Origin: Deefgea tanakiae | GTDB taxonomy: Bacteria; Pseudomonadota; Gammaproteobacteria; Burkholderiales; Chitinibacteraceae | Length of the DNA: 64,000 nucleotides | Direction: 5' to 3' | NCBI RefSeq assembly: GCF_019665765.1 | Contig: NZ_CP081150.1 | Location: forward strand, 806,001 to 870,000 | Shown: piece after piece, positions 41,252 through 53,131 of the stretch | Layout of the letters: each line of letters starts with the position of its first letter | How positions within the stretch are numbered: position 1 is the first letter of the stretch | Position numbers and translations under genes: made by a program | The notes under the pieces: generated by a model | What the model saw: only the letters and a program-made list of their open reading frames with translations | Told to the model about the DNA's origin: nothing | Database searches by the model: none

Positions 41252-42271
41252 TTAGTCCGCAACGCGAACAACGAGTTTGCCAAAGTTTTTACCTTCAAGC
41301 AGACCGATAAACGCTGCTGGCGCATTTTCTAAACCGTCGACCCGGTCTTCTTTGAATTTGATTTTGCCTGCGGCCAACCATTCACTCATCGCGGTGAAAA
41401 ACTCACCGTAACGGTGGCCGTAATCATCAAAAATAATAAAGCCTTGCATTTTGATGCGTTTTTTCAATAACGTGCTCATCAGCATGCCCATGCGGTCTGG
41501 GCCGGCTGGCAATTGGCTGTCGTTATAGCTGGCAATCAAACCGCAAACAGGAACTCGTGCACTGACATTCAATAGCGGCAATACCGCATCAAATACCGCG
41601 CCGCCGACGTTTTCAAAGTACACATCGATACCCGCAGGGCAAGCAGCCGCCAGCTGTGCAGCAAAGTCCGAATTTTTACGATCGATACAGGCATCAAAGC
41701 CCAATTCATCGACGACGTATGCGCATTTATCCGCGCCACCCGCAATTCCGACCACGCGGCAGCCTTTCAATTTAGCGATCTGCCCAACAATCGCACCCAC
41801 TGCGCCACTGGCCGCCGCGACCACGACAGTTTCGCCCGCTTTGGGTTGGCCAATGTCGAGCAAGCCCATATAGGCAGTAAAGCCTGGCATTCCCAATGCG
41901 CCCAGTGCAATCGAGGGTTGCGCGAGTGTCGGTGATAATTTATTCAATGACGCGCCATTGGCGACTGCATAGTCTTGCCAGCCACTGAAGCTCAGCACGA
42001 TGTCACCGACTTTAAAGTCAGCGTGATTGGACGCTTCTACGCGTGCAACCGTACCGCCGACCATGACCGCATTGAGTTCAACTGGCGGAGCATATGAAGG
42101 GGTATCGCTCATCCGGCCTCGCATATAGGGATCTAGCGACAGATACATCGTGCGAAGTAAAACTTCATCGGCAGCTAGAACAGGAATTTTCGATTCAACT
42201 AGACGGAAGTTTTCCAAGGTCGGCGCGCCGACTGGGCGAGAATTCAATACGATTTGGCGATTGATCGTCAT
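41252..42271 (-). CDS. NADP-dependent oxidoreductase, CurA/MDR2 type
   Basis: 339 residues. MTINRQIVLNSRPVGAPTLENFRLVES and LLRTMYLSLDPYMRGRM are typical of the leukotriene B4 dehydrogenase/CurA branch of zinc-free MDR enzymes. The cofactor fold is GETVVVAAASGAVGAIVGQIAKLKGCRVVGIAGG. It reduces alpha,beta-unsaturated aldehydes and ketones with NADPH. The start is ATG 42271 with AAGGA 7 bp before it. It lies 16 bp after yqhD in the same operon, consistent with reactive-electrophile clearance. Confidence 0.92.
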   Translation of the reverse strand: MTINRQIVLNSRPVGAPTLENFRLVESKIPVLAADEVLLRTMYLSLDPYMRGRMSDTPSYAPPVELNAVMVGGTVARVEASNHADFKVGDIVLSFSGWQDYAVANGASLNKLSPTLAQPSIALGALGMPGFTAYMGLLDIGQPKAGETVVVAAASGAVGAIVGQIAKLKGCRVVGIAGGADKCAYVVDELGFDACIDRKNSDFAAQLAAACPAGIDVYFENVGGAVFDAVLPLLNVSARVPVCGLIASYNDSQLPAGPDRMGMLMSTLLKKRIKMQGFIIFDDYGHRYGEFFTAMSEWLAAGKIKFKEDRVDGLENAPAAFIGLLEGKNFGKLVVRVAD

Positions 42272-42287
42272 TTTCAAATCCTTGAAA

Positions 42288-43445
42288 TTAAAGTGAGTTT
42301 TCTAAAATTTGGCGGCTCATTGCCAATGTCACATCTTGGCGTTCGCCCAGTGCGGTCATGCCGTGCGCTTCGAGTTTTGCAATAACGGTATCAATCACAG
42401 CAGCGCCCAAATCGTAATCAGCTAGGCGAGTTTTAATTCCCATCGCTTCAAAGAATTCACGCGTTTTGTTAATCGCAGCGGCAATGCGTTCTTCTTCTGT
42501 ACCTGCGGTGATGTGCCAAACACGGTCGGCGTATTGCAGCAATTTTTCGCGCTTGCTCTCTGAACGTAATACCAAGTTGGCCGGTAACACAATCGCCAAC
42601 GTGCGAGCATGGTCGATATCAAATAGTGCGGTGAGTTCATGACCGATCATATGTGTTGACCAATCTTGCGGTACGCCAGCGCCGATCAAACCATTGAGTG
42701 CTTGCGTCGCTGCCCACATCAAATTAGCGCGTAGATCGTAATCTTGCGGATTGGCCAGCACTTTTGGGCCGATCTCAATCAAGATATTGAGCAGACCTTC
42801 GGCGTAGCGATCTTGCACCATGCCGTTTACTGGGTAAGTGAGGTATTGCTCAACGGTGTGAACAAAGGCATCGACCACGCCATTGGCGATTTGCCGCGTT
42901 GGCAAGGTGAAGGTTTTGCTCGGGTCTAGAATCGAAAATTGCGGGAATACCAGCGGATTCATAAATGGTAATTTGGTATGCGTGGCTTTTTGCGTAATCA
43001 CCGCGCCGTGATTCATTTCTGAGCCGGTCGCTGGCAACGTCAGTACCGTACCAAATGGCAATGCACTCGTGATGGTTTGGCCAAAAGTAGTCAAGATATC
43101 CCACGGTTCGCCAGCAAAAGGCACCGCGGCAGCGATAAATTTAGTGCCGTCAATCACTGAACCACCACCGACTGCAAGTAAGAAATCAAGCTTTTCTGCA
43201 CGGATGATTTCGACCGCTTGCATCAAAGTTTCGTATGTTGGATTCGGTTCAATACCGTTAAATTCATGCACTTCACGTGAACCTAGCGCAGCGCGAACTT
43301 CGGCGACTGTGCCGTTTTTACGTGCGCTTTCGCCGCCGAGTAAAATCATCACACGAGCGTTGGCAGGTACTAATTGATCGAGCTTGGCGATGGTTTCCGT
43401 ACCGAAAACGATTTTAGTTGGGTTAAAAAATTCAAAGTTAGTCAT
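42288..43445 (-). CDS. yqhD: NADPH-dependent aldehyde reductase YqhD (Fe-ADH family)
   Basis: 385 residues. NFEFFNPTKIVFGTETIAKL, HEFNGIEPNPTYETLMQAVEIIRAEKLDFLLAVGGGSVIDGTKFIAAA and PFGTVLTLPATGSEMNHGAVIT follow E. coli YqhD closely. The metal ligands sit in DAFVHTVEQYL and MIGHELTALFDIDHARTLAIV. It reduces toxic aldehydes such as those from lipid peroxidation. A NemR-type operator lies 17-31 bp upstream of the start, and a terminator separates it from nemR. Confidence 0.93.
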   Translation of the reverse strand: MTNFEFFNPTKIVFGTETIAKLDQLVPANARVMILLGGESARKNGTVAEVRAALGSREVHEFNGIEPNPTYETLMQAVEIIRAEKLDFLLAVGGGSVIDGTKFIAAAVPFAGEPWDILTTFGQTITSALPFGTVLTLPATGSEMNHGAVITQKATHTKLPFMNPLVFPQFSILDPSKTFTLPTRQIANGVVDAFVHTVEQYLTYPVNGMVQDRYAEGLLNILIEIGPKVLANPQDYDLRANLMWAATQALNGLIGAGVPQDWSTHMIGHELTALFDIDHARTLAIVLPANLVLRSESKREKLLQYADRVWHITAGTEEERIAAAINKTREFFEAMGIKTRLADYDLGAAVIDTVIAKLEAHGMTALGERQDVTLAMSRQILENSL

Positions 43446-43461
43446 TGGGGCAATCCTTTAT

Positions 43462-43476
43462 TAGACCAGTCGTCTA
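43462..43476. promoter_or_regulatory. NemR-type operator at yqhD
   Basis: TAGACCAGTCGTCTA, a palindrome with TAGAC/GTCTA arms. With flanks it is identical over 21 bp to the site at nemR. It lies 17 bp before the yqhD ATG, where a bound repressor would block transcription. Confidence 0.85.
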
Positions 43477-43532
43477 GTTACTAAGTAAAAATAAGATCGC
43501 AAATGCGATCAATCAAAATAAAAAAGTAAAAT

Positions 43533-43576
43533 CAAAAAATCTCACAGCCAACACGGCCTATATCTGAGCCGTGTTG
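43533..43576 (-). terminator. Terminator of nemR
   Basis: Perfect 9-bp stem CAACACGGC (43549-43557)/GCCGTGTTG (43568-43576); the minus-strand transcript continues with ATTTTTTGATTTT. It separates nemR from yqhD. Confidence 0.85.
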
Positions 43577-43598
43577 TGGGTCGAGAAAACGGTATTGT

Positions 43599-44189
43599 TC
43601 AGTTGATTTTTAATATCAACTGCGTACTTTGCATCGCAGCTTCCAGTGCACTGCGGTCACGACGAATTTTGGTCAGTAGCGTTGCACCCAGCCACATTTC
43701 GTACAGCTGTAGTGCCGTTTGTTCGCAGCTTGTGTAGTGGGGTAATGAGCCATCGCGCTCGCCTTCACTTAAGCACAGGGCAATACGTGCTAATAGTTGT
43801 TGCGTGCCGCGCAGTAAACTACCGCGCATACTTTCTGATAAATCCGAAACTTCAGCTGCGAGTTTGACCGTGAGACATTGTCCGTCGCGATCGTCGCAGC
43901 TTTGGGTTTCTAGCCAACTCGCCCAATACGCCAGCATCCGCTCGGCTGCGGTTGCATCTTGGGTATTAAAAATTGAATCGAGTCGTTCGCAGTAATTAGC
44001 GAAGTAGTTTTCTAGTAACGCCTCACCAAATGCTTCTTTGGATTTGAAGTAATGGTAAAACGAGCCTTTGGGTACATCGGCCGCAGTCAAAATTTCATTT
44101 AAACCGACCGCAGAGAAACCTTTGCCCAAAATGATGGGCTTGGCGGTATCTAAAATATGCTGACGTACGTCGATGTGATCTGAGTTCAT
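43599..44189 (-). CDS. nemR: TetR-family repressor NemR, electrophile and HOCl sensing
   Basis: 196 residues. The N-terminal HTH is ILDTAKPIILGKGFSAVGLNEILTAADVPKGSFYHYFKSKEAFGEALLENY. The ligand domain has GQCLTVKLAAEVSDLSESMR and MWLGATLLTKI. Cys105 and Lys174 correspond to E. coli NemR Cys106 and Lys175, whose bond senses HOCl and electrophiles; their 69-residue spacing is the same. A TAGACCAGTCGTCTA site stands 22 bp before its ATG, so it is probably autoregulated and also represses yqhD-curA-ohr. In E. coli the targets are nemA and gloA instead. Confidence 0.93.
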   Translation of the reverse strand: MNSDHIDVRQHILDTAKPIILGKGFSAVGLNEILTAADVPKGSFYHYFKSKEAFGEALLENYFANYCERLDSIFNTQDATAAERMLAYWASWLETQSCDDRDGQCLTVKLAAEVSDLSESMRGSLLRGTQQLLARIALCLSEGERDGSLPHYTSCEQTALQLYEMWLGATLLTKIRRDRSALEAAMQSTQLILKIN

Positions 44190-44210
44190 GGAGTGGATAA
44201 TATATTTAAT

Positions 44211-44225
44211 TAGACCAGTCGTCTA
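44211..44225. promoter_or_regulatory. NemR-type operator at nemR
   Basis: TAGACCAGTCGTCTA, the second copy of the site at 43462-43476, 22 bp before the nemR start codon. Confidence 0.85.
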
Positions 44226-44265
44226 GTTAGGTTGGTGTGCAAAATTACACATAGGATTACAAGCT

Positions 44266-45045
44266 CTATTTGCTTGTTTTTGAAATAGGCAAGTAACCAT
44301 CAAATCGCGTACTTTCGCCATCAAACACAAAATCAGGTCGTGCGCCGGCCATTAGTGGTGCGTGTCGTGGGCGTTTGACGATGATGCGTTTTTTGGCGAT
44401 GAGTCGCGCAGGGGCGAGCAGAGCGTCGGCGTCTTCGTCACCACCAATCAGCGTTTGAAACGCCGCCATGCTTTTCTTTGATTTGGCACGTTTACCGGGT
44501 TCGGGAAACATCGGGTCTAAATATACAACGTCGAATTCTTGTTGCGCCAAAGGCCCGCTGCCAGATGCGCGCTCGGTGAGCCATTCGCGACCATCGCCAA
44601 AATGCAGCGTCATTCTGGCGACAATCTCAGCGGTATGGGTATCAAGTTGCGCGCGTCGTAAACCGTCGCTTAGCAGTAGATACGCCACGGGAGTTCGTTC
44701 AATCAACGTCATTGTGCAGCCCAAGCTCGCCAATACGAAGGCGTCACCGCCTAGACCAGCTGTCGCGTCGAGAACGCGCGGAATATAGTCACCTTTGATA
44801 CCAATCGCTTTGGCGACAGGTTGGCCGCGTCCGCCGCCAAATTGGCGTCGATGCGCTGCAGCTCCGCTGACAAAATCAACATACACGGCTGCTTTTTCGC
44901 CAATCGTGACTAACTCAAGGTGTTCTTCATTCCATTGCAGTATGTGAGTGGCGTCCTCGTCAGGTAATGCCCAGATGGCAATACCCATTTGAGTTGCTTG
45001 GGTGATGAGCGCTGCAGGGGCGTTGTGCTGAATTAAACCGATCAT
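44266..45045 (-). CDS. rsmJ: 16S rRNA (guanine-1516-N2)-methyltransferase
   Basis: 259 residues. RRQFGGGRGQPVAKAIGIKGDYIPRVLDATAGLGGDAFVLASLGCTMTLIERTP is the RsmJ signature with the SAM motif DATAGLGGDA. The catalytic loop follows in VVYLDPMFPEPGKRAKSKKSMAAFQTLIGGDEDADALLAPAR. It methylates G1516 of 16S rRNA (E. coli numbering). It overlaps mtfA by 4 bp. Confidence 0.95.
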   Translation of the reverse strand: MIGLIQHNAPAALITQATQMGIAIWALPDEDATHILQWNEEHLELVTIGEKAAVYVDFVSGAAAHRRQFGGGRGQPVAKAIGIKGDYIPRVLDATAGLGGDAFVLASLGCTMTLIERTPVAYLLLSDGLRRAQLDTHTAEIVARMTLHFGDGREWLTERASGSGPLAQQEFDVVYLDPMFPEPGKRAKSKKSMAAFQTLIGGDEDADALLAPARLIAKKRIIVKRPRHAPLMAGARPDFVFDGESTRFDGYLPISKTSK

Positions 45046-45854
45046 TGTAGGTAGTCGTAGTGGGTTTGAACTTGGCGATAGCGCTGCGGATGCAGCCGTT
45101 CAACGGGGTTTTGTTTATAAAATTGCATCAGTTGCTCGTAGACTGCTGGATAGCTTTCTTGCAACACCAGTGGGCGTTCAAAGAAAACTTCGCTGAGTAC
45201 CGCAAAGCATTCTGCTGGGTTGGTCGCTGCGTAGAGATCGATGGGGCTGTGATCGTTTGAATGGGCAATCGTTTGCAAATGGGCAAAGGCATCACTGAAT
45301 GCACTTTTCCAATCGTCGTGATCCATTCCGGCATTCAACATGGGGTAGCCATTGGCATGACCGCCGTTGCACATGTCCAGTTTATGCGCTAATTCGTGGA
45401 TGACGACATTCCAGCCATCCAGCCATGGGCCTTCCATCACATCGTGCCATGAAAAAAGTACCGGTCCATCGCCACGTGCTTGGCCTGCTAGTGCGTACTC
45501 TCCCTCGTGAACCACTCCGATGTGATCAACATGGCGCGTAGGCGCTAGAAATTGGCTAGGGTAAATGATGATTTCCTGCCAGTCGTCATAGGCCTCAAAA
45601 CCTAAATTCAAAATAGGTAATACCGCTTGGGCCGCTAAAACGACTCGCATCGGGTCAGAAAAAACCAGCTCGCCTTTTGGGCTGATCGCTTTGGTATGTA
45701 AAAACCATGCGGCCAATTCGCGTAAACGCGCTAATTCACTGGCACTAAGGTTTTTCAGTACTGGCATTGTGGTCACGGGCAGCCATAATTCATCAGCAAT
45801 CGGATGCTGCGCTAACCAACGGTCACGACGTTTGCGGCGAAAGTAATTGAACAT
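45042..45854 (-). CDS. mtfA: Zinc peptidase MtfA (Mlc titration factor)
   Basis: 270 residues. The zinc site is VIHELAHKLD (HELAH, 153-157), with the third ligand probably in the downstream AATNPAECFAVLSEVFFE. The flanking WHDVMEGPWLDGWNVV is typical of MtfA. In E. coli MtfA binds the repressor Mlc and affects ptsG; whether that holds here is not known. It is followed by rsmJ in a 4-bp overlap. Confidence 0.92.
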   Translation of the reverse strand: MFNYFRRKRRDRWLAQHPIADELWLPVTTMPVLKNLSASELARLRELAAWFLHTKAISPKGELVFSDPMRVVLAAQAVLPILNLGFEAYDDWQEIIIYPSQFLAPTRHVDHIGVVHEGEYALAGQARGDGPVLFSWHDVMEGPWLDGWNVVIHELAHKLDMCNGGHANGYPMLNAGMDHDDWKSAFSDAFAHLQTIAHSNDHSPIDLYAATNPAECFAVLSEVFFERPLVLQESYPAVYEQLMQFYKQNPVERLHPQRYRQVQTHYDYLQ

Positions 45855-46093
45855 GAGTGTTTCCCGTGTAAGTTCAAATCAGATGGGTCTCACTAGGTGC
45901 AATTCAAGCGAAGCCTGCTGAAGTTAGTACCCTAGGCTTGAAGATGAGATACAACAGTCATCGATTTGTCACATACCGCGTAAGCTGGCTTGATGTATTA
46001 TCAAAAAATCATAATTACATGATTGTCCCTATTGTTTTTTTTATCTTGTGCTGAATTCAATAGTTCTGTTGCTGGTTTTTTTGGAGTAGTCGC
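45855..46093. other. Intergenic region before the chemoreceptor gene
   Basis: 239 bases between divergent mtfA and the chemoreceptor. No ORF and no clear flagellar sigma-28 promoter was found. A GGAG site lies near 46083. Confidence 0.4.
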
Positions 46094-48433
46094 ATGCTGA
46101 GTCGTAATCAAGTCATTGCAATGATAGGGGCGATTTATTCGCTGGTGCTGATCGTATTACTGATCGTGGTGAGTAGTAGCTCGGTGGCAGCCGTCAATGA
46201 TTTATTCATTACGATTTTATTGATTGGTTTTTTGGGCTTGGGCGCACTGTTGGCGGGCTTAATTTTTGGTATCAATCAACTCTTTAAGCCGTTAACGCAA
46301 ATGCGTGATTTGATGCGCTTGCAAGCGACCGATCGTGGCGATTTGATGACTCGCTTGCCCGTCAATGGCCATGGCGATATTGCCGATATTTCTCTGGCTT
46401 ACAATGAGTCTACCGATAAAGTACAAAGGATTTTGCGTGATGTGCAGCGCGAAATGGAAGGGCTTGCCTTGGGTTTATCTGAGCTCACCGCTGTGACAGG
46501 GCAAATGGCGAAAGACACGCATATGCAGTCTGACCATGCCGCTTCATCGGCCGCAACCGTCGAAGAAATTACCGTCAGCATCAATCATATTGCCGATAGT
46601 GCCCGTGATATGGATCATGTAGTTGAAGAAACTCAACGTCTCTCTAGCAATAGCGCCGACTCGGTGCTGCGCGTATCTGAGGAAGTTGGCAAGGTTTCAG
46701 AAGCGGTGGTTGCTTTAACGCAAACGATGGATGGTTTGGGCGCTCGTTCTGAAGAAATTAGCGGGATTATTGGGGTCATTAAAGACATCGCTGGGCAAAC
46801 CAATTTACTTGCACTCAATGCCGCCATTGAAGCTGCCCGTGCCGGTGAAATGGGGCGTGGATTTGCAGTTGTTGCAGATGAAGTTCGAAAACTGGCCGAG
46901 CGCACCAGCAGCGCAACAGTTGAAATTGCGCACAAAATTGAATCGGTTGGCCGTGAAACTCAAAATGCAGTCAGCAATATGTCGACCACCGCTGAGCGCG
47001 TAGCGCACAGTGTGACAATGGCCGAAGATGCGCGCGGCCATATGCTGGGCATTCGTGAGCATATGGGGAGTGTGGTATCGGCAGTGCGCCTTATTGCCGA
47101 ATCAACGCAAGAGCAATCAGCTGCGACACATACCTTGGCAAGTTCAGCTGAGCGTTTAGATGTGATGACACAAGCCACTGACTCAGCTTTACAGCAAGCA
47201 ACCAACACTTTAAAAAACTTGGATGAACGAGCAAAACGTTTACTCAAATCAGTGGGCAACTTCAAACTCGCCGATATTGAAGTAGTGCACGGTTGGGCTG
47301 CTTCAAGCGAGGCGCGTGCGGTTTCTGAAATCAAAGCGCTCCTGAATGCACAAGGTCATCACTGGGCGGATGCACAAGGTGATAATTCAGCACCTGCATT
47401 ACGTGCTCGCGCGCTGGCGGGTAATCCACCTACTGCAGCGGCCATTGGCGGCGTAAAAATTCAAAACTGGGCTAAAGAAGGCGTTTTGGCTGATTTGAAT
47501 GATGTCGCTACGAGCCAAGGATGGAACCGAGTGCTGCCCGCAGTGCTAGATACGATGATGAAAGCCAACGGCCAATATGTTGCAGTGCCGTTAGGAGTGG
47601 CCCGCGTGAATATGTTCTGGATTAATGCCGCGGTACTTCGCCGTGCGGGTGTAAATCCACCTAAATCGTGGGACGATTTCTTTGTAGTGGCTGAAAAGCT
47701 CAAACAAATGGGTACGCCGATGTTGGCTGTCGGTGAGCAATCGTGGCAAATCGCGACGATGTTTGAGGCGATTACGTGCGGCTTGGGTGGGGCGGCATTT
47801 TATAACGCGGCGTTTAGTCAGCTCGATCAATCGGCACTCAATGGCTCTGTGATGATTCGTTGTCTAGAAACCTTGCGACAAATGAAGCAATACTGCACAC
47901 CAGATGCCGCTGGCCGCGAGTGGAATTTAGCTACTGCCGATGTGATTAATGGCCGTGCAGCGATGCAATTGATGGGCGATTGGGCAAAAGGCGAATTTGC
48001 CCAAGCGGGTAAAACGCAAGGAACCGATTATCTGTGCGTGCCATCACCAACGCAAAATGGTGAGTACAGCTTTGCTGCTGATACGCTCACGATGTTTAAA
48101 CAAAGCGATCCACGTTTGCAAACCGCGCAGCGTGATTTTGTGAGTTTGCTAATGAGTACCGAAGGCCAGGAGGTATTCAATTTGTATAAAGGTAATATTC
48201 CAGCCCGTACCGATGTGAATATGACTCGTTATGATGATTACGCCAAACAATCTGCTCGTGATTTTGCCAATGCAGCTAGCAAGCAAGTGTTGGTGCCATC
48301 ATGGGCGCACAATATGGCGGTGCAAGATGAAGTTAAATTGGCTTTCTATGATGCGGTTGATGCATTCTGGAAAAACAGCAATATGAGCGCGCAAGACGCA
48401 GCTCGCCGTTTTGCAGAAGCCGCTCGTCGTTGA
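46094..48433 (+). CDS. Methyl-accepting chemotaxis protein fused to a C-terminal family-1 sugar-binding protein
   Basis: 779 residues. Two membrane helices (about 7-29 and 38-62) are separated by only about eight residues, so there is no periplasmic sensor. A HAMP-like segment follows, then the MCP signalling domain (about 110-385) with its hairpin tip [49 protein letters not shown]. From residue about 395 the protein is a family-1 solute-binding domain like the glucose binder Gts[90 protein letters not shown] and [11 protein letters not shown]. It has no signal peptide; the topology places this domain in the cytoplasm. It likely senses an internal sugar and signals to CheA-CheW. No CheR-type C-terminal pentapeptide is seen. 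Confidence 0.93.
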
Positions 48434-48452
48434 TACGGGTTGCATTTAATTT

Positions 48453-48480
48453 AAAGCACGCTCAAATGCGTGCTTTTTTT
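48453..48480 (+). terminator. Terminator of the chemoreceptor gene
   Basis: Perfect 9-bp stem AAAGCACGC/GCGTGCTTT with a 6-nt loop and a long T-run, 20 bp after the stop. Confidence 0.92.
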
Positions 48481-48555
48481 ATTGCAACCGTTCCCGTTTT
48501 TTAGTGTTATTTTTTGAACTGTGCTGAACCGCATCGTGGGTGTAAGATCAAAATC

Positions 48556-48915
48556 ATGCTTCATCTTCGCGCGTTTATTTTTTTGCTTTTGTCGTGTTTA
48601 TTGTCACTGAATGTGGCGATGGCCTCTGAGCGCGCGCCATTTTCAGTGCAAGCCCATGCAACTGAGCAGTTGCATGAATCTCATGCTACGCATCACGAAG
48701 ATTCACAGACTGCAGACAGTCTAAATTGCAAAAATCATTGCGCTAGCCAAAGCATGGCCAATAATCATTGTGGTGTCTGCTTGAGTGGCTTGGCAACATC
48801 TATGCCATTGATTTTGGTTTCACAGGCGCCAGCGATATTCGTCTCGGCACCGACTATCGTGCTGCAAAGCATTCATTTCCCGCCGCCTTTACATCCTCCG
48901 TTACAACTTCTTTAA
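48556..48915 (+). CDS. Exported His/Cys-rich small protein (copper module)
   Basis: About 119 residues. The signal peptide MLHLRAFIFLLLSCLLSLNVAMA is followed by a His-rich stretch (QAHATEQLHESHATHHED). A Cys-rich core (LNCKNHCASQSMANNHCGVCLSGLA) and a hydrophobic Pro-rich end follow. The layout resembles small DUF2946-like proteins found next to copper genes, but I cannot name a family with certainty. Metal binding is inferred from His/Cys content and the adjoining multicopper oxidase. The ATG at 48556 has no strong ribosome binding site; a longer TTG frame starts at 48514. Confidence 0.7.
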   Translation: MLHLRAFIFLLLSCLLSLNVAMASERAPFSVQAHATEQLHESHATHHEDSQTADSLNCKNHCASQSMANNHCGVCLSGLATSMPLILVSQAPAIFVSAPTIVLQSIHFPPPLHPPLQLL

Positions 48916-48976
48916 TCAGGCCCCGCAATAAGCGAGTTTGCTATTCGCTCCACATTGCCTTAGACAAAGTGATTGC

Positions 48977-48995
48977 ATCGATCAAATTGATCGAT
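48977..48995. promoter_or_regulatory. Perfect palindrome upstream of multicopper oxidase (site 1)
   Basis: ATCGATCAA-A-TTGATCGAT: 9-bp arms around one base, 131 bp before the oxidase start. Candidate operator. Confidence 0.4.
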
Positions 48996-49062
48996 ATATT
49001 GCTTTGTATTGGCCTGTTTCAATAACTTTACTATTTTAAAATATGAGACGTATTGCTCTAGA

Positions 49063-49080
49063 CGCATTATTAATAATGCG
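49063..49080. promoter_or_regulatory. Perfect palindrome upstream of multicopper oxidase (site 2)
   Basis: CGCATTATTAATAATGCG, an 18-bp perfect palindrome 45 bp before the oxidase start. Candidate operator; regulator unknown. Confidence 0.45.
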
Positions 49081-49125
49081 CTTTGCTTATATACATGGCC
49101 AATCAATTCTCATTTGGAGATTCTG

Positions 49126-50622
49126 ATGAATCGTAGAAATTTTATTTTTAGTGGGATTGGTCTGGGTATCTTGCCGATTCTTAATGTGCCTGCGTGGGCG
49201 GCGATAGATCACAGCGCACATGGCGCACATGGCGCAGACGCAATGCCGCAGAACCTAAAAACGGTTGCGGACATGCCTTTGCTTGCGGTTTCTGCATTGC
49301 CTGCAGGACGGCCCCATCAGCCCTTGTCCATTCTTAAAAATACCAGTGTGCAGCCAAAGCAATTTACCGCCACTCTCACTGCAGCTGCGCATGATGTTGA
49401 GTTAGTCGCCGGCCAGAAAACACCGATGTGGTTATATAACGGCCAAGTACCGGGGCCCTTGATTGAGGCGTTTGAAGGCGATGAAGTAGAAATTCGCTTT
49501 GTGAATCAGTTGGCGCAAGCGTCGACCATTCATTGGCACGGCCTGCCTGTGCCGCCCGAGCAAGATGGGAATCCACACGATGCGGTGCCTGCAGGCGGTG
49601 AGCATGTGTATCGCTTTAAGTTGCCTAAAGACAGCGCTGGCACGTATTGGTATCACCCCCATCCCCATGGCGACACGCCGGAGCAGGTGTATCGGGGCTT
49701 GGCGGGCCTGTTTATTGTTCGTAGTAAAAACGATCCGCTCAAAGCCTTTGCCGAGCAGCATTTAGTCATTTCGGATTTAAAACTCGACGCCAACGCGCAG
49801 ATTCCCGATAACACCGCCAATGACTGGATGAATGGTCGTGAAGGGCAGTTTGTGCTGGTCAATGGCCAGCGCGAACCGGTAATCACCATTGCTGGGCGGC
49901 AACGCTTGCGGATTTGGAATGCCTGTAGCGCAAGGTATTTGCGCTTGAATATGGGCCAGCCCTTTACGCTAGTCGGTACGGATGGCGGTTTGATCGAAAA
50001 GCCGCAAATCATGGATGAATTTTTATTGGTGCCAGGGCAAAGGATCGAGATTCTTGTGGGTAACGGTAAACCCGCATCCATGACCTTGAAAGCCTTGATT
50101 TATAACCGCGAGAAAATGGGCAAGGTTGCGCCCGAAGTTGATCGTACCTTAGCAACTTTGCAATTTACGGCGGGATTGATGCCGGAAATTCCACAAAAAC
50201 TAAGGAAAATCGCCGATTTTGGTCGCGCCACGGCGATGAAAAAGGTTGAGTTTAGCGAAACCATGAGTATGGACAATGGCGTGCATACGATGGCATTTTT
50301 GGTGAACGGCAAGTCGTTTGACATGAATCGCCATGACCTAATCAGCAAGGTCAACGAGGTGGAAGTCTGGGAGATATTCAATAACTCGCACATGGATCAT
50401 CCATTCCATATTCACGGTACGCAATTTATCGTCATTGATAGCACCTTCAACAAACAGCGTACCAATGCGCCGTATCGCGCGCTACACGACACCATCAATC
50501 TACGCCCCTATGAAACCATCCGCATTAAAACCGTGCAGCAGGATATTGGCTTGCGGATGTTCCACTGCCATATTCTGGAGCATGAAGGGCAGGGCATGAT
50601 GGCGCAGTTGCTGGTCAAATAA
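49126..50622 (+). CDS. Multicopper oxidase (CueO/CopA-like)
   Basis: 498 residues. MNRRNFIFSG is a Tat signal (twin Arg) and cleavage is likely after VPAWA; a His-rich stretch DHSAHGAHGAD follows. The four copper motifs are HWHGLPVPPEQDG, WYHPHPHGDTPEQVYRGLAG, HPFHIHGTQF and MFHCHILEHEGQGMM. It probably oxidises Cu(I) or other metals in the periplasm. The start at ATG 49126 has TTGGAGA upstream; codons before it do not look like protein. It stands between two Cys-rich exported proteins, forming a copper module. Confidence 0.95.
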   Translation: MNRRNFIFSGIGLGILPILNVPAWAAIDHSAHGAHGADAMPQNLKTVADMPLLAVSALPAGRPHQPLSILKNTSVQPKQFTATLTAAAHDVELVAGQKTPMWLYNGQVPGPLIEAFEGDEVEIRFVNQLAQASTIHWHGLPVPPEQDGNPHDAVPAGGEHVYRFKLPKDSAGTYWYHPHPHGDTPEQVYRGLAGLFIVRSKNDPLKAFAEQHLVISDLKLDANAQIPDNTANDWMNGREGQFVLVNGQREPVITIAGRQRLRIWNACSARYLRLNMGQPFTLVGTDGGLIEKPQIMDEFLLVPGQRIEILVGNGKPASMTLKALIYNREKMGKVAPEVDRTLATLQFTAGLMPEIPQKLRKIADFGRATAMKKVEFSETMSMDNGVHTMAFLVNGKSFDMNRHDLISKVNEVEVWEIFNNSHMDHPFHIHGTQFIVIDSTFNKQRTNAPYRALHDTINLRPYETIRIKTVQQDIGLRMFHCHILEHEGQGMMAQLLVK

Positions 50623-50659
50623 ACAGATTTTGTAATTTAATAAAATTTAGGAATTCATC

Positions 50660-51085
50660 ATGAAATTCAAACAACTCTTTGCTGTGCTTTTAGTGGCTCC
50701 GACTTTCGCGTTTGCGGCTGCGCCAGCGGGTACGATGTATAAAGACCCCCACTGCGGTTGCTGCGGTGAGCACGCTAAATATCTGCGCGATGCTGGTTTT
50801 CAAATTAAAGAGCAAACCAGCGATAATATGAGCGCCATCAAGCAAAAATACGGCACCGATGCTGCGCCTAGCTGCCACACCATTGTGATTGGTGGCTATG
50901 CGGTGGAAGGACATGTGCCCGCAGCAGCGATAACAAAATTGCTGAAAGACAAACCGAATGCAAAAGGAATCGCAGTGCCGGGCATGCCAGCAAATTCACC
51001 GGGAATGGGTGATTACAAGTTGGGAACGATTGCGGTGGTGTTGATTGGCAAAGACGGCAGTGTGAAGCCGTATGGCAATTTTTAA
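50660..51085 (+). CDS. DUF411 exported metal-binding protein
   Basis: 141 residues with a signal peptide (MKFKQLFAVLLVAPTFAFA). The core MYKDPHCGCCGEHAKYLRDAGF, APSCHTIVIGGYAVEGHVPAAAITKLL and IAVPGMPANSPGMG is the DUF411 signature, often encoded beside copper-resistance genes. CGCC and SCH are likely metal ligands. It starts 37 bp after the oxidase and is followed by a strong terminator, so it ends the copper unit. Confidence 0.93.
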   Translation: MKFKQLFAVLLVAPTFAFAAAPAGTMYKDPHCGCCGEHAKYLRDAGFQIKEQTSDNMSAIKQKYGTDAAPSCHTIVIGGYAVEGHVPAAAITKLLKDKPNAKGIAVPGMPANSPGMGDYKLGTIAVVLIGKDGSVKPYGNF

Positions 51086-51092
51086 GCGATAA

Positions 51093-51124
51093 AAAATGAG
51101 CTTGCCTTGTCGCAAGCTCATTTT
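51093..51124. terminator. Bidirectional terminator (DUF411 / glycosyltransferase)
   Basis: Perfect 13-bp stem AAAATGAGCTTGC/GCAAGCTCATTTT with a 6-nt loop, between convergent genes. Confidence 0.92.
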
Positions 51125-51146
51125 GATTGATAGCATTCAAATCGAT

Positions 51147-52205
51147 TTATTCGCCGCCAGCGCCTTGCTCAATCAGGCGCAGCTCAGCTTGGGCATTGGG
51201 TGTGAACGGGTGTAGGTGAGAAAGGAATTGGCGGCTTGCTGCGCCCCAAGAATAGCGCTCAGCAAAGCGGCGCACTTCGTCGCGATCGATCCGTAGTGCG
51301 GCGATACACGCTTCGCGTAGGTCTTCGTTTAATGCACCGGGGCCGTCACTGCCAATCACATCAATTGGACCAGTAACAGGGTATGCCGCTACAGGGCAAC
51401 CACAAGCCATTGCTTCGAGCAATACTAGGCCGAATGTATCAGTTTTGCTTGGGAATACAAACACATCAGCGCTGCTGTAGACTTCGGCGAGTTCGGTTTG
51501 ATTTAAGACACCCAGCCAGTGAATATTCTTTTGCTCACCATACTTGGCTTTGAGTCCTGCCGCTGCTGGACCGTCACCGACCACCCATTTGCTGCCGGGC
51601 AAATCTAATTCTAAAAAGGCTTCGACGTTTTTCTCAACGGCAACACGGCCTACATAAACAAAAATTGGGCTACGCGAGTTGAGTTTATCGCGGCGACCTG
51701 GTTTGAAAATCTCCAGATCCACCCCGCGAGACCACATCACCACATTGGTAATGCCGCGATCGCTTAAGTCTTTAACGACCACTTTGGTTGGTGCCATTAC
51801 GGCTTGAGCTGAATTATGAAAGCGGCGCAACCATGCATAAGTCACGCTCAGTGGAATCGCAAAACGCAATTGCACATATTCAGGAAAACGTGAGTGATAC
51901 GCCGTCGTGTATGGGAGTTTATTTTTTAGGCTGTACGAGCGCGCTGCCAAGCCCAGTGGGCCCTCGGTAGCGATGTGAATCGCATCAGGTGCAAATTCAC
52001 GAATGCGTTCATTGACTTTGTTGCCCGGAAATAAAGAAAGGCGGATATCGGGATACGTTGGGCAAGGCACGGTCTTAAATTCGAGCGGCGTGAGCAATTC
52101 CACCGTGTGCCCCATTTTTCTTAATTCGGCGCTGGTTTGTTTCAAGGTGCGAACTACGCCATTGACTTGCGGTTCCCAAGCATCGGTGACGATTAAAATC
52201 TTCAT
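51147..52205 (-). CDS. GT4-family glycosyltransferase
   Basis: 352 residues with two Rossmann domains (GT-B). DAWEPQVNGVVRTLKQTSAELRKMGHTVELLTP is the MgtA/PimB-like opening. The donor site is FVYVGRVAVEKNVEAFLEL... and the E-x7-E motif region is PSKTDTFGLVLLEAMACGCPVAAYPVTGPIDVI. It probably adds a hexose or mannose to a membrane lipid; acceptor and donor are unknown. It is paired with the LpxH-like phosphoesterase upstream, separated by 122 bp. Confidence 0.88.
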   Translation of the reverse strand: MKILIVTDAWEPQVNGVVRTLKQTSAELRKMGHTVELLTPLEFKTVPCPTYPDIRLSLFPGNKVNERIREFAPDAIHIATEGPLGLAARSYSLKNKLPYTTAYHSRFPEYVQLRFAIPLSVTYAWLRRFHNSAQAVMAPTKVVVKDLSDRGITNVVMWSRGVDLEIFKPGRRDKLNSRSPIFVYVGRVAVEKNVEAFLELDLPGSKWVVGDGPAAAGLKAKYGEQKNIHWLGVLNQTELAEVYSSADVFVFPSKTDTFGLVLLEAMACGCPVAAYPVTGPIDVIGSDGPGALNEDLREACIAALRIDRDEVRRFAERYSWGAASRQFLSHLHPFTPNAQAELRLIEQGAGGE

Positions 52206-52235
52206 GCGATTAATCCTTTCAAAGTAGTGAAGAAC

Positions 52236-52272
52236 GTAAGTACGACAGTTTTTGTGCTGTTGCCGCGTCTTG
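52236..52272. repeat. Inverted repeat between glycosyltransferase and phosphoesterase
   Basis: 9-bp arms ACAGTTTTT/AAAAACTGT around a 19-bp loop. The right side, with CTTGCGTAAAAACTGTTTAC, loosely resembles the end of the 95-bp element and may be a decayed, internally deleted copy. Confidence 0.45.
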
Positions 52273-52327
52273 CGTAAAAACTGTTTACCTTCCTTGGTGC
52301 AAAAAAGTGAAACTTCAAATGGCGCAC

Positions 52328-53131
52328 TCAGGCGGTTTGTGGCGCAAGTGGCGTTAATAATTTATGGATATTGGCGGTTTGCGCGTCGTACATTTTTTGC
52401 CAAGTGAGGATGCGCAATTCACCATTGGGCATTTCAACCAAGGCAGTCAGGCTCTCCACCCAATCACCATCGTTGCAATATTCAATCCCGTCGATCATGC
52501 GCATTTCGGCTTTATGGATATGGCCGCAAATCACGCCATCTAACTCGCGTTTTTTGGCTTCTGCAGCGACCGCCTCTTCAAAATCAGAGACAAAACTCAC
52601 TGCTTTTTTGACTTTGTGTTTCAGGTATTGCGACAGTGACCAATAACCCAAGCCCATGCGGGCGCGGGCACGGTTAAACCAGCGATTGAGTTTGAGCGTC
52701 ATCTCGTAGGCTTGGTCTCCAACAACGGCTAACCAGCGCGCGCATTGAATAACGCCGTCAAATTGGTCGCCATGAATGACAAGGTATTTTTTGCCGTTCG
52801 CCATCGTGTGGATGACTTCGTCTTCGATTTTGATTTCGCCAAACATCAGACCAATGAATTGGCGCGCGCCTTCGTCGTGATTGCCGGGGATGTAGGTAAC
52901 TTGAGTGCCTTTGCGGGCTTTGCGGAGAATTTTTTGAATAACATCGTTATGACTTTGTTGCCAGTACCAACTGCGCTTCATGGCCCAGCCGTCAATAATG
53001 TCGCCAACTAGATATAATTGCTCTGATTCGGTGTGTTTTAAGAAATCTAAGAGATAATCAGCTTGGCAACCTGCCGTACCCAAGTGAATATCAGAAATCC
53101 AGATGCTTCGAAAACGCAATTCAGATGCCAT
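52328..53131 (-). CDS. UDP-2,3-diacylglucosamine diphosphatase-like metallophosphoesterase
   Basis: 267 residues. The calcineurin-like motifs SDIHLGTAGCQADYLLDFL, LVGDIIDGWAMKRSWYWQQSHNDV, YIPGNHDEGARQFIG, YLVIHGDQFDGVI and ICGHIHKAEMR define the LpxH/LpxH2-like branch. It may hydrolyse UDP-diacylglucosamine in lipid A synthesis, or a related phospholipid. The pairing with a GT4 enzyme suggests joint work on an envelope glycolipid; this is inference. Confidence 0.85.
   Translation of the reverse strand: MASELRFRSIWISDIHLGTAGCQADYLLDFLKHTESEQLYLVGDIIDGWAMKRSWYWQQSHNDVIQKILRKARKGTQVTYIPGNHDEGARQFIGLMFGEIKIEDEVIHTMANGKKYLVIHGDQFDGVIQCARWLAVVGDQAYEMTLKLNRWFNRARARMGLGYWSLSQYLKHKVKKAVSFVSDFEEAVAAEAKKRELDGVICGHIHKAEMRMIDGIEYCNDGDWVESLTALVEMPNGELRILTWQKMYDAQTANIHKLLTPLAPQTA

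Follow-up and report, generated by a model that had tools for sequence, protein, structure and literature searches.

A complete gene of 779 codons, located at positions 46094-48433 (+ strand) of the window (the whole stretch of 64,000 nucleotides of Deefgea tanakiae DNA that was analysed), encodes a chemoreceptor (MCP) which carries a solute-binding protein (SBP) at its C-terminus. We consider it probable (roughly 0.72) that this chemoreceptor is anchored in the membrane and senses through its cytoplasmic C-terminal solute-binding (Venus-flytrap) domain, and that it arose by one fusion in the Chitinibacteraceae, followed by duplication. The receptor probably senses a compound inside the cell, since many species have retained the join and the SBP is placed on the inner end.

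Translation of the open reading frame revealed a single uninterrupted frame from ATG to stop, whose status as a complete gene is supported by Pfam and by the 51 fusions of the family (the window copy included). The product begins with two transmembrane (TM) helices, placed by hydropathy at about residues 4-27 (46103-46174, +) and 38-62 (46205-46279, +), with approximate limits and with both stretches overlapping in the scan. The loop between them has roughly 8-10 residues, which is too short for a periplasmic sensor. A HAMP domain was not matched by Pfam at E 0.1 in the window copy; the paralogous fusion gives a match at E 1.4e-15. The signalling domain (residues 205-357; 46706-47164, +) was recognized as PF00015 MCPsignal with an E value of 4.1e-42 and a score of 144.4 bits against a curated cut-off of 34.6. 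The MCP half is complete, as its match to the NCBIfam model CtpM ends at residue 391, one position short of the end of the model (557 of 558; this match lies below the curated cut-off and serves the alignment without naming the protein). Among the unfused MCPs of this genome, the one that matches best ends with “...LFGNFKL”, nearly the same letters as are found at the junction of the fusion (VGNFKL followed by AD; 47252-47275, +), where a natural MCP C-terminus meets the mature N-terminus of an SBP and the signal peptide is absent. Judged by eye, the SBP half starts precisely where mature GtsA-type proteins start. It forms a two-lobed solute-binding domain of the GtsA/ppGBP type (residues 394-779; 47273-48430, +), within which SBP_bac_1 was matched at residues 428-693 (E 6.5e-24) and SBP_bac_1/SBP_bac_8 within residues 428-709, and a phmmer comparison of residues 389-779 with solved structures gave ppGBP and its relatives as the nearest (E 2.1e-91). 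The sequence-only reading had described an MCP with two membrane helices, a short loop and no periplasmic sensor, followed in one frame by a whole binding domain; hydropathy, the open reading frame and Pfam bear out this description. Apart from the two fusions and two SBPs, the genome G000 (3.56 Mb) holds 22 MCP-like matches; with 11 CheW-domain matches this makes a rich chemotaxis set for its size.

The fusion is widely distributed in a single family. A search of the Chitinibacteraceae revealed 51 fusions (including the window copy) in 35 of 43 genomes and in 10 of 11 genera, and frame-by-frame checking confirmed that each of them carries the MCP half in the same frame as the SBP. Sixteen of the family genomes possess a second copy. 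The fusion is absent from eight genomes (three of genus g8 and five of genus g9), and an SBP match at E<=1e-60 is present in 40 of the 43. The full-length search at E<=1e-125 detected the fusion in 13 of the 399 genomes sampled from the order, every one a member of the Chitinibacteraceae, and in the class (369 genomes) and the phylum (398 genomes) it detected the window's own genome alone; no fusion was therefore found outside the Chitinibacteraceae in these samples, which overlap, are non-exhaustive and were scored with two candidates per genome, at a threshold that would miss distant fusions. The fusion is also present in named records of Chitinilyticum piscinae, Andreprevotia chitinilytica and Silvimonas amylolytica, all placed in the Chitinibacteraceae by the NCBI taxonomy. 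Among the matches listed by a scan of genome contigs there are at least three fusions and at least 77 standalone SBPs, one of them from Iodobacter.

The possibility that the gene results from an assembly join, a frameshift or a one-off accident is refuted by these data, because 51 copies with the same join occur in 35 of the 43 family genomes, to which the named records of three genera and the purifying selection acting on the fusion can be added. This upholds the sequence-only reading, which had already dismissed a frameshift or an assembly join and had named a lack of conserved homologues as something that would count against it. The window genome itself encodes two fusions, which share 54% identity across residues 25-779. 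It also has an unfused GtsA-type gene, next to which lies a permease-like gene (by eye). The paralogous fusion (L002:1498-3870) is situated between rplY-like and pth-like genes, as judged by eye, and has Gly in place of E41 in its pocket.

The usual role of solute-binding proteins is in transport or sensing, either in the periplasm or outside the cell. The SBP half of the fusion is most likely cytoplasmic, because it has no signal peptide, no membrane helix occurs beyond the N-terminal ones and a cysteine pair has been lost. In the window copy, hydropathy analysis showed the region from the hairpin to residue 395 to be free of membrane or export segments, and beyond residue 150 the values stay below the threshold of 1.6 (maximum 1.41). 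The family behaves in the same manner: exactly two non-overlapping hydrophobic windows precede the hairpin in 49 of 51 fusions (three in the other two), and a single fusion passes the threshold after residue 150, with a value of 1.66 inside the SBP domain. The cysteine pair (columns 648 and 716) is present in all 100 standalone relatives compared (20 GtsA proteins of the family, the 77 genome-contig matches listed, two orphans and one more distant SBP of the genome) and in none of the 51 fusions. In the window copy residue 648 (48035-48037, +) is a partnerless Cys, a position occupied among the 51 fusions by C in 26, F in 20 and G in 5, and Tyr 716 (48239-48241, +) stands at the place of the partner cysteine, which is lost in all 51. 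The three fusions of the named records likewise have no such pair (one of these probably comes from the same strain as the family genome G002). The mean number of cysteines per SBP domain rises from about 2.0-2.15 in standalone proteins to 3.3 in the fusions. The loss of this pair fits the disappearance of a putative periplasmic disulphide in the reducing cytoplasm.

It is very improbable that the binding domain is exposed outside the cell, whether by an inverted topology or by a hidden export signal. Inspection by eye of the N-termini of three standalone relatives (the two orphans and the GtsA of the genome) does suggest export; the fusion, however, has N-terminal helices followed by the hairpin and no membrane segment between the hairpin and the SBP, an MCP hairpin lying outside would be unable to meet CheA or CheW, and the cysteine pair is gone from every fusion. 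The earlier proposal that a periplasmic-type binding protein has been domesticated inside the cell is consequently strengthened by hydropathy and by the cysteine loss, and the exporting signal or membrane segment before residue 395 that would speak against it was looked for by hydropathy and not found.

The nature of the ligand was approached through the 12 glucose contacts published for ppGBP of P. putida (section 3.6 of PMC7927077), with a check of the residue numbering. Seven of the 12 are kept in the window copy and four are changed, and G68 falls within a shortened loop where the alignment is uncertain. W36, W250, W270, D303, K339 and H379 are invariant in all 51 fusions. Three other contacts have been replaced throughout: the Ala-Ile-Gly of residues 450-452 (47441-47449, +) puts Ala at Q90, as in 51 of 51 fusions, and Gly at K92, as in 46 (Arg in the remaining 5), and Ala 661 (48074-48076, +) occupies the place of N301 in all 51. 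The combination at Q90/K92/N301 is therefore A/G/A in 46 fusions and A/R/A in 5, as opposed to QKN in 91 of 97 standalone GtsA-type proteins (the contig-scan matches listed included). Two of these 97 read MAN and thus lack both Q90 and K92, which shows that the two contacts are not absolute in standalone proteins either. The fourth change of the window copy, Gly 400 (47291-47293, +) at the position of W35, is variable, with G in 21, W in 21 and S in 9 fusions. In addition, E41 is replaced by Gly in 20 of 51 fusions, constituting one paralogue group, in which sugar binding may be weaker or absent. The SBP half is 40% identical to ppGBP and its SBP_bac_1 fold is supported by Pfam and by a structure model, which is confident and predicts an open state nearest to unliganded ppGBP. 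Because six contacts are invariant and three (Q90, K92 and N301) are replaced in all fusions, the domain probably binds some ligand, but probably not glucose in the manner of ppGBP. A sugar or sugar derivative that exceeds glucose in size or differs from it is the probable ligand, e.g. an amino sugar, a disaccharide or a sugar phosphate, as released in chitin breakdown. The label “GtsA-like” given by the sequence-only reading thus holds for the fold, but not for the whole pocket, as the window copy has substitutions at 4 of the 12 published glucose contacts; similarly, the loss of sugar-binding residues, which it had regarded as damaging, applies to three contacts replaced in every fusion and not to the six invariant ones.

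Two other views of the pocket have to be considered. The sequence-only reading took the receptor to read internal sugar (energy taxis); in the glucose version of this view, the domain binds a glucose-type sugar, and free glucose within the cell is what the receptor reports. We find this claim unsupported and judge it unlikely: the GtsA-like fold, the 40% identity with the glucose-binding ppGBP and the seven contacts kept in the window copy speak in its favour, but Q90, K92 and N301 are replaced in all 51 fusions, together with W35 in the window copy. Its remaining argument comes from the divergent neighbour (45042-45854, -), an MtfA-like peptidase matched by Pfam as “glucose-regulated metallo-peptidase M90” (its NCBIfam MtfA match falls below the cut-off), yet of the 15 loci around other fusions (L081-L095) only 4 have a gene of this type next to the fusion, all from genera g1 and g4, the only genera in which this arrangement was seen among the loci examined. 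It is also rather improbable that the SBP half has ceased to bind a small molecule and acts as a structural or protein-docking module, e.g. for a transporter or a PTS protein. Three to four glucose contacts are lost (and E41 as well in one paralogue group), and some SBPs do dock on receptors, as described for GltB on GtrS in the consulted part of PMC7927077; against this, the substitutions are uniform and not scattered, and six pocket residues, three tryptophans among them, are invariant in 51 of 51 fusions. Binding of a ligand other than glucose, detected within the cell, is accordingly the interpretation that we prefer.

The gene neighbourhood was inspected for further clues to the ligand. 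An operon partner was rejected as such a clue, as genes of the window beyond the fusion recur in 4 of 36 loci, from genera g1 and g4, and outside these two genera no shared neighbour pointing to a ligand was detected in the 36 loci. No ABC protein was noticed among the frames of at least 100 aa at 41252-53131 (by eye, with Pfam applied to three frames).

Both halves of the protein have a history that is compatible with one event. In the SBP tree (89 domains) all 51 fusions lie on one side of one branch (SH-aLRT 99), and in the tree of the MCP halves, built with 16 rows for further MCPs from the genome, the fusions again form one clade (support 99). Both trees were made by a quick method and gave long-branch warnings; the 16 rows come from loci covering 20 of the 26 genome matches (two frames without the anchor motif were dropped) and include three near-copies of each other (two loci overlap), and the long branches make the order unsafe. 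The two clades fit a fusion that probably had a single origin. In the proposed scenario a GtsA-like periplasmic binding protein would have lost its signal peptide and been joined end to end with a complete MCP, in what was probably a single event within the Chitinibacteraceae; duplication of the fusion gene would have followed. The letters of the pocket divide the present fusions into three groups: the window type, the paralogues with Gly at E41 (20 of 51) and those with Arg at K92 (5 of 51).

Two standalone SBPs, in G029 (genus g9, grouping with Iodobacter in the SBP tree) and G037, are sited between a LysR-type gene and ftsK (by eye) and have signal-peptide-like N-termini. They keep the cysteine pair, and in their pocket K92 is already replaced by Gly and N301 by Ala or Asp. 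These orphan SBPs look exported, have a fusion-like pocket and lie downstream of ftsK (L119:9730-11040 and the C-terminal part of the frame L118:9529-12588), and no ABC genes were seen near them by eye. In the SBP tree the orphan SBP L060 branches beside the fusions (support 82) and L109 has no resolved position. These two orphan SBPs may be related to the periplasmic donor.

The values of dN/dS, obtained by a simple Nei-Gojobori count with dS above 1 in most of the eight pairs, are 0.015-0.095 for the SBP half and 0.016-0.064 for the hairpin. The TM helices change faster, at 0.084-0.19 where measurable (two pairs are saturated). The membrane part therefore looks like a mere anchor, with constraint acting on the hairpin and on the SBP half.

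Chemoreceptors with cytoplasmic C-terminal sensors (CZB, hemerythrin) are already known, and we regard the fusion as a variant among them rather than as a new kind of receptor. Section 6 of PMC7390727 describes C-terminal-sensor chemoreceptors as a subfamily that is poorly characterised and for which Pfam has at least 17 domain types; within the open-access literature, a scope that leaves the supplementary list of these 17 types (PMC7390727) outside, no SBP domain C-terminal to an MCP was found described. The consulted parts of other sources state that PBP-clan domains are periplasmic (PMC8846402) and list SBP_bac among archaeal receptor domains, the side of the membrane not being given in the text (PMC9680633).

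The closest comparison is DcrH of Desulfovibrio vulgaris, which, as far as the relevant part of PMC9388753 describes it, is also a membrane-anchored MCP with a cytoplasmic sensor after the signalling domain, and whose signalling by the C-terminal domain is there called not fully understood. It differs by its periplasmic region and by a sensor of the hemerythrin (diiron) type, whereas the fusion has no periplasmic domain and a two-lobed binding protein of 385 residues. CZB-type chemoreceptors resemble the fusion in the position of the sensor (same section of PMC7390727), but CZB is a zinc-binding domain. With GtsA, GltB and ppGBP (SBP_bac_1) the fusion shares the fold, about 40-50% sequence identity and the six invariant pocket residues; unlike them, it has no signal peptide, no cysteine pair and no recognised ABC genes alongside, three glucose contacts are replaced in all fusions, and an MCP is joined to it. 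The use of the SBP fold in signalling is shared with GtrS (acting with GltB) and with SBP_bac sensor domains, although in these the binding protein or domain acts in the periplasm, according to the parts of PMC7927077 and PMC8846402 that were used.

In the structure model the linker between the hairpin and the SBP is short, with residues 386-391 of low confidence and the first strand starting at 394. The C-terminal end of an MCP hairpin sits at the membrane-proximal end of the helical bundle. A cytoplasmic small molecule could bind in the cleft between the SBP lobes, and the closing of the lobes near this end of the hairpin would change the packing of the helical bundle, which in turn would alter the activity of CheA. 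The Chitinibacteraceae that host the fusion are chitin degraders. It is tempting to speculate, although we hold this only tentatively, that one fusion turned a periplasmic transport-binding protein into an intracellular Venus-flytrap sensor by which chitin-degrading bacteria steer according to the level of an imported chitin-derived metabolite (e.g. GlcNAc, GlcNAc 6-phosphate or chitobiose), the tuning of the paralogues differing from ligand to ligand (the A/G/A, A/R/A and E41G pockets). A conserved and apparently once-evolved move of an SBP into the cytoplasm offers a clean case for re-specification toward internal metabolites, as well as for the way in which a C-terminal domain controls the MCP hairpin. 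As close standalone relatives exist, the ligand is open to a direct search with the purified domain of ~385 residues.

Several additional candidates were rejected. A 1224-residue frame of G037 with an SBP at its end was taken as a possible second type of fusion, but Pfam finds the SBP alone, and this part has its own start and a signal-peptide-like N-terminus directly after ftsK (by eye); the long frame is therefore an artefact of open frames in GC-rich DNA. For the long frames of L146 and L174, too, Pfam reported nothing but SBP matches. A shuffle test of the 51 copies produced no convincing sigma-28 promoter upstream of the fusions: the score was matched in only 5 of 100 shuffles for 3 copies, in at least 7 of 100 for the other 48, and in 86 of 100 for the window copy. 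Downstream of the fusion (48514-51085, +) there are genes for a small secreted-looking protein (with no Pfam match), a multicopper oxidase (Pfam) and a small protein of 141 aa, which together look like a copper-handling cluster, an assignment made by eye apart from the oxidase.
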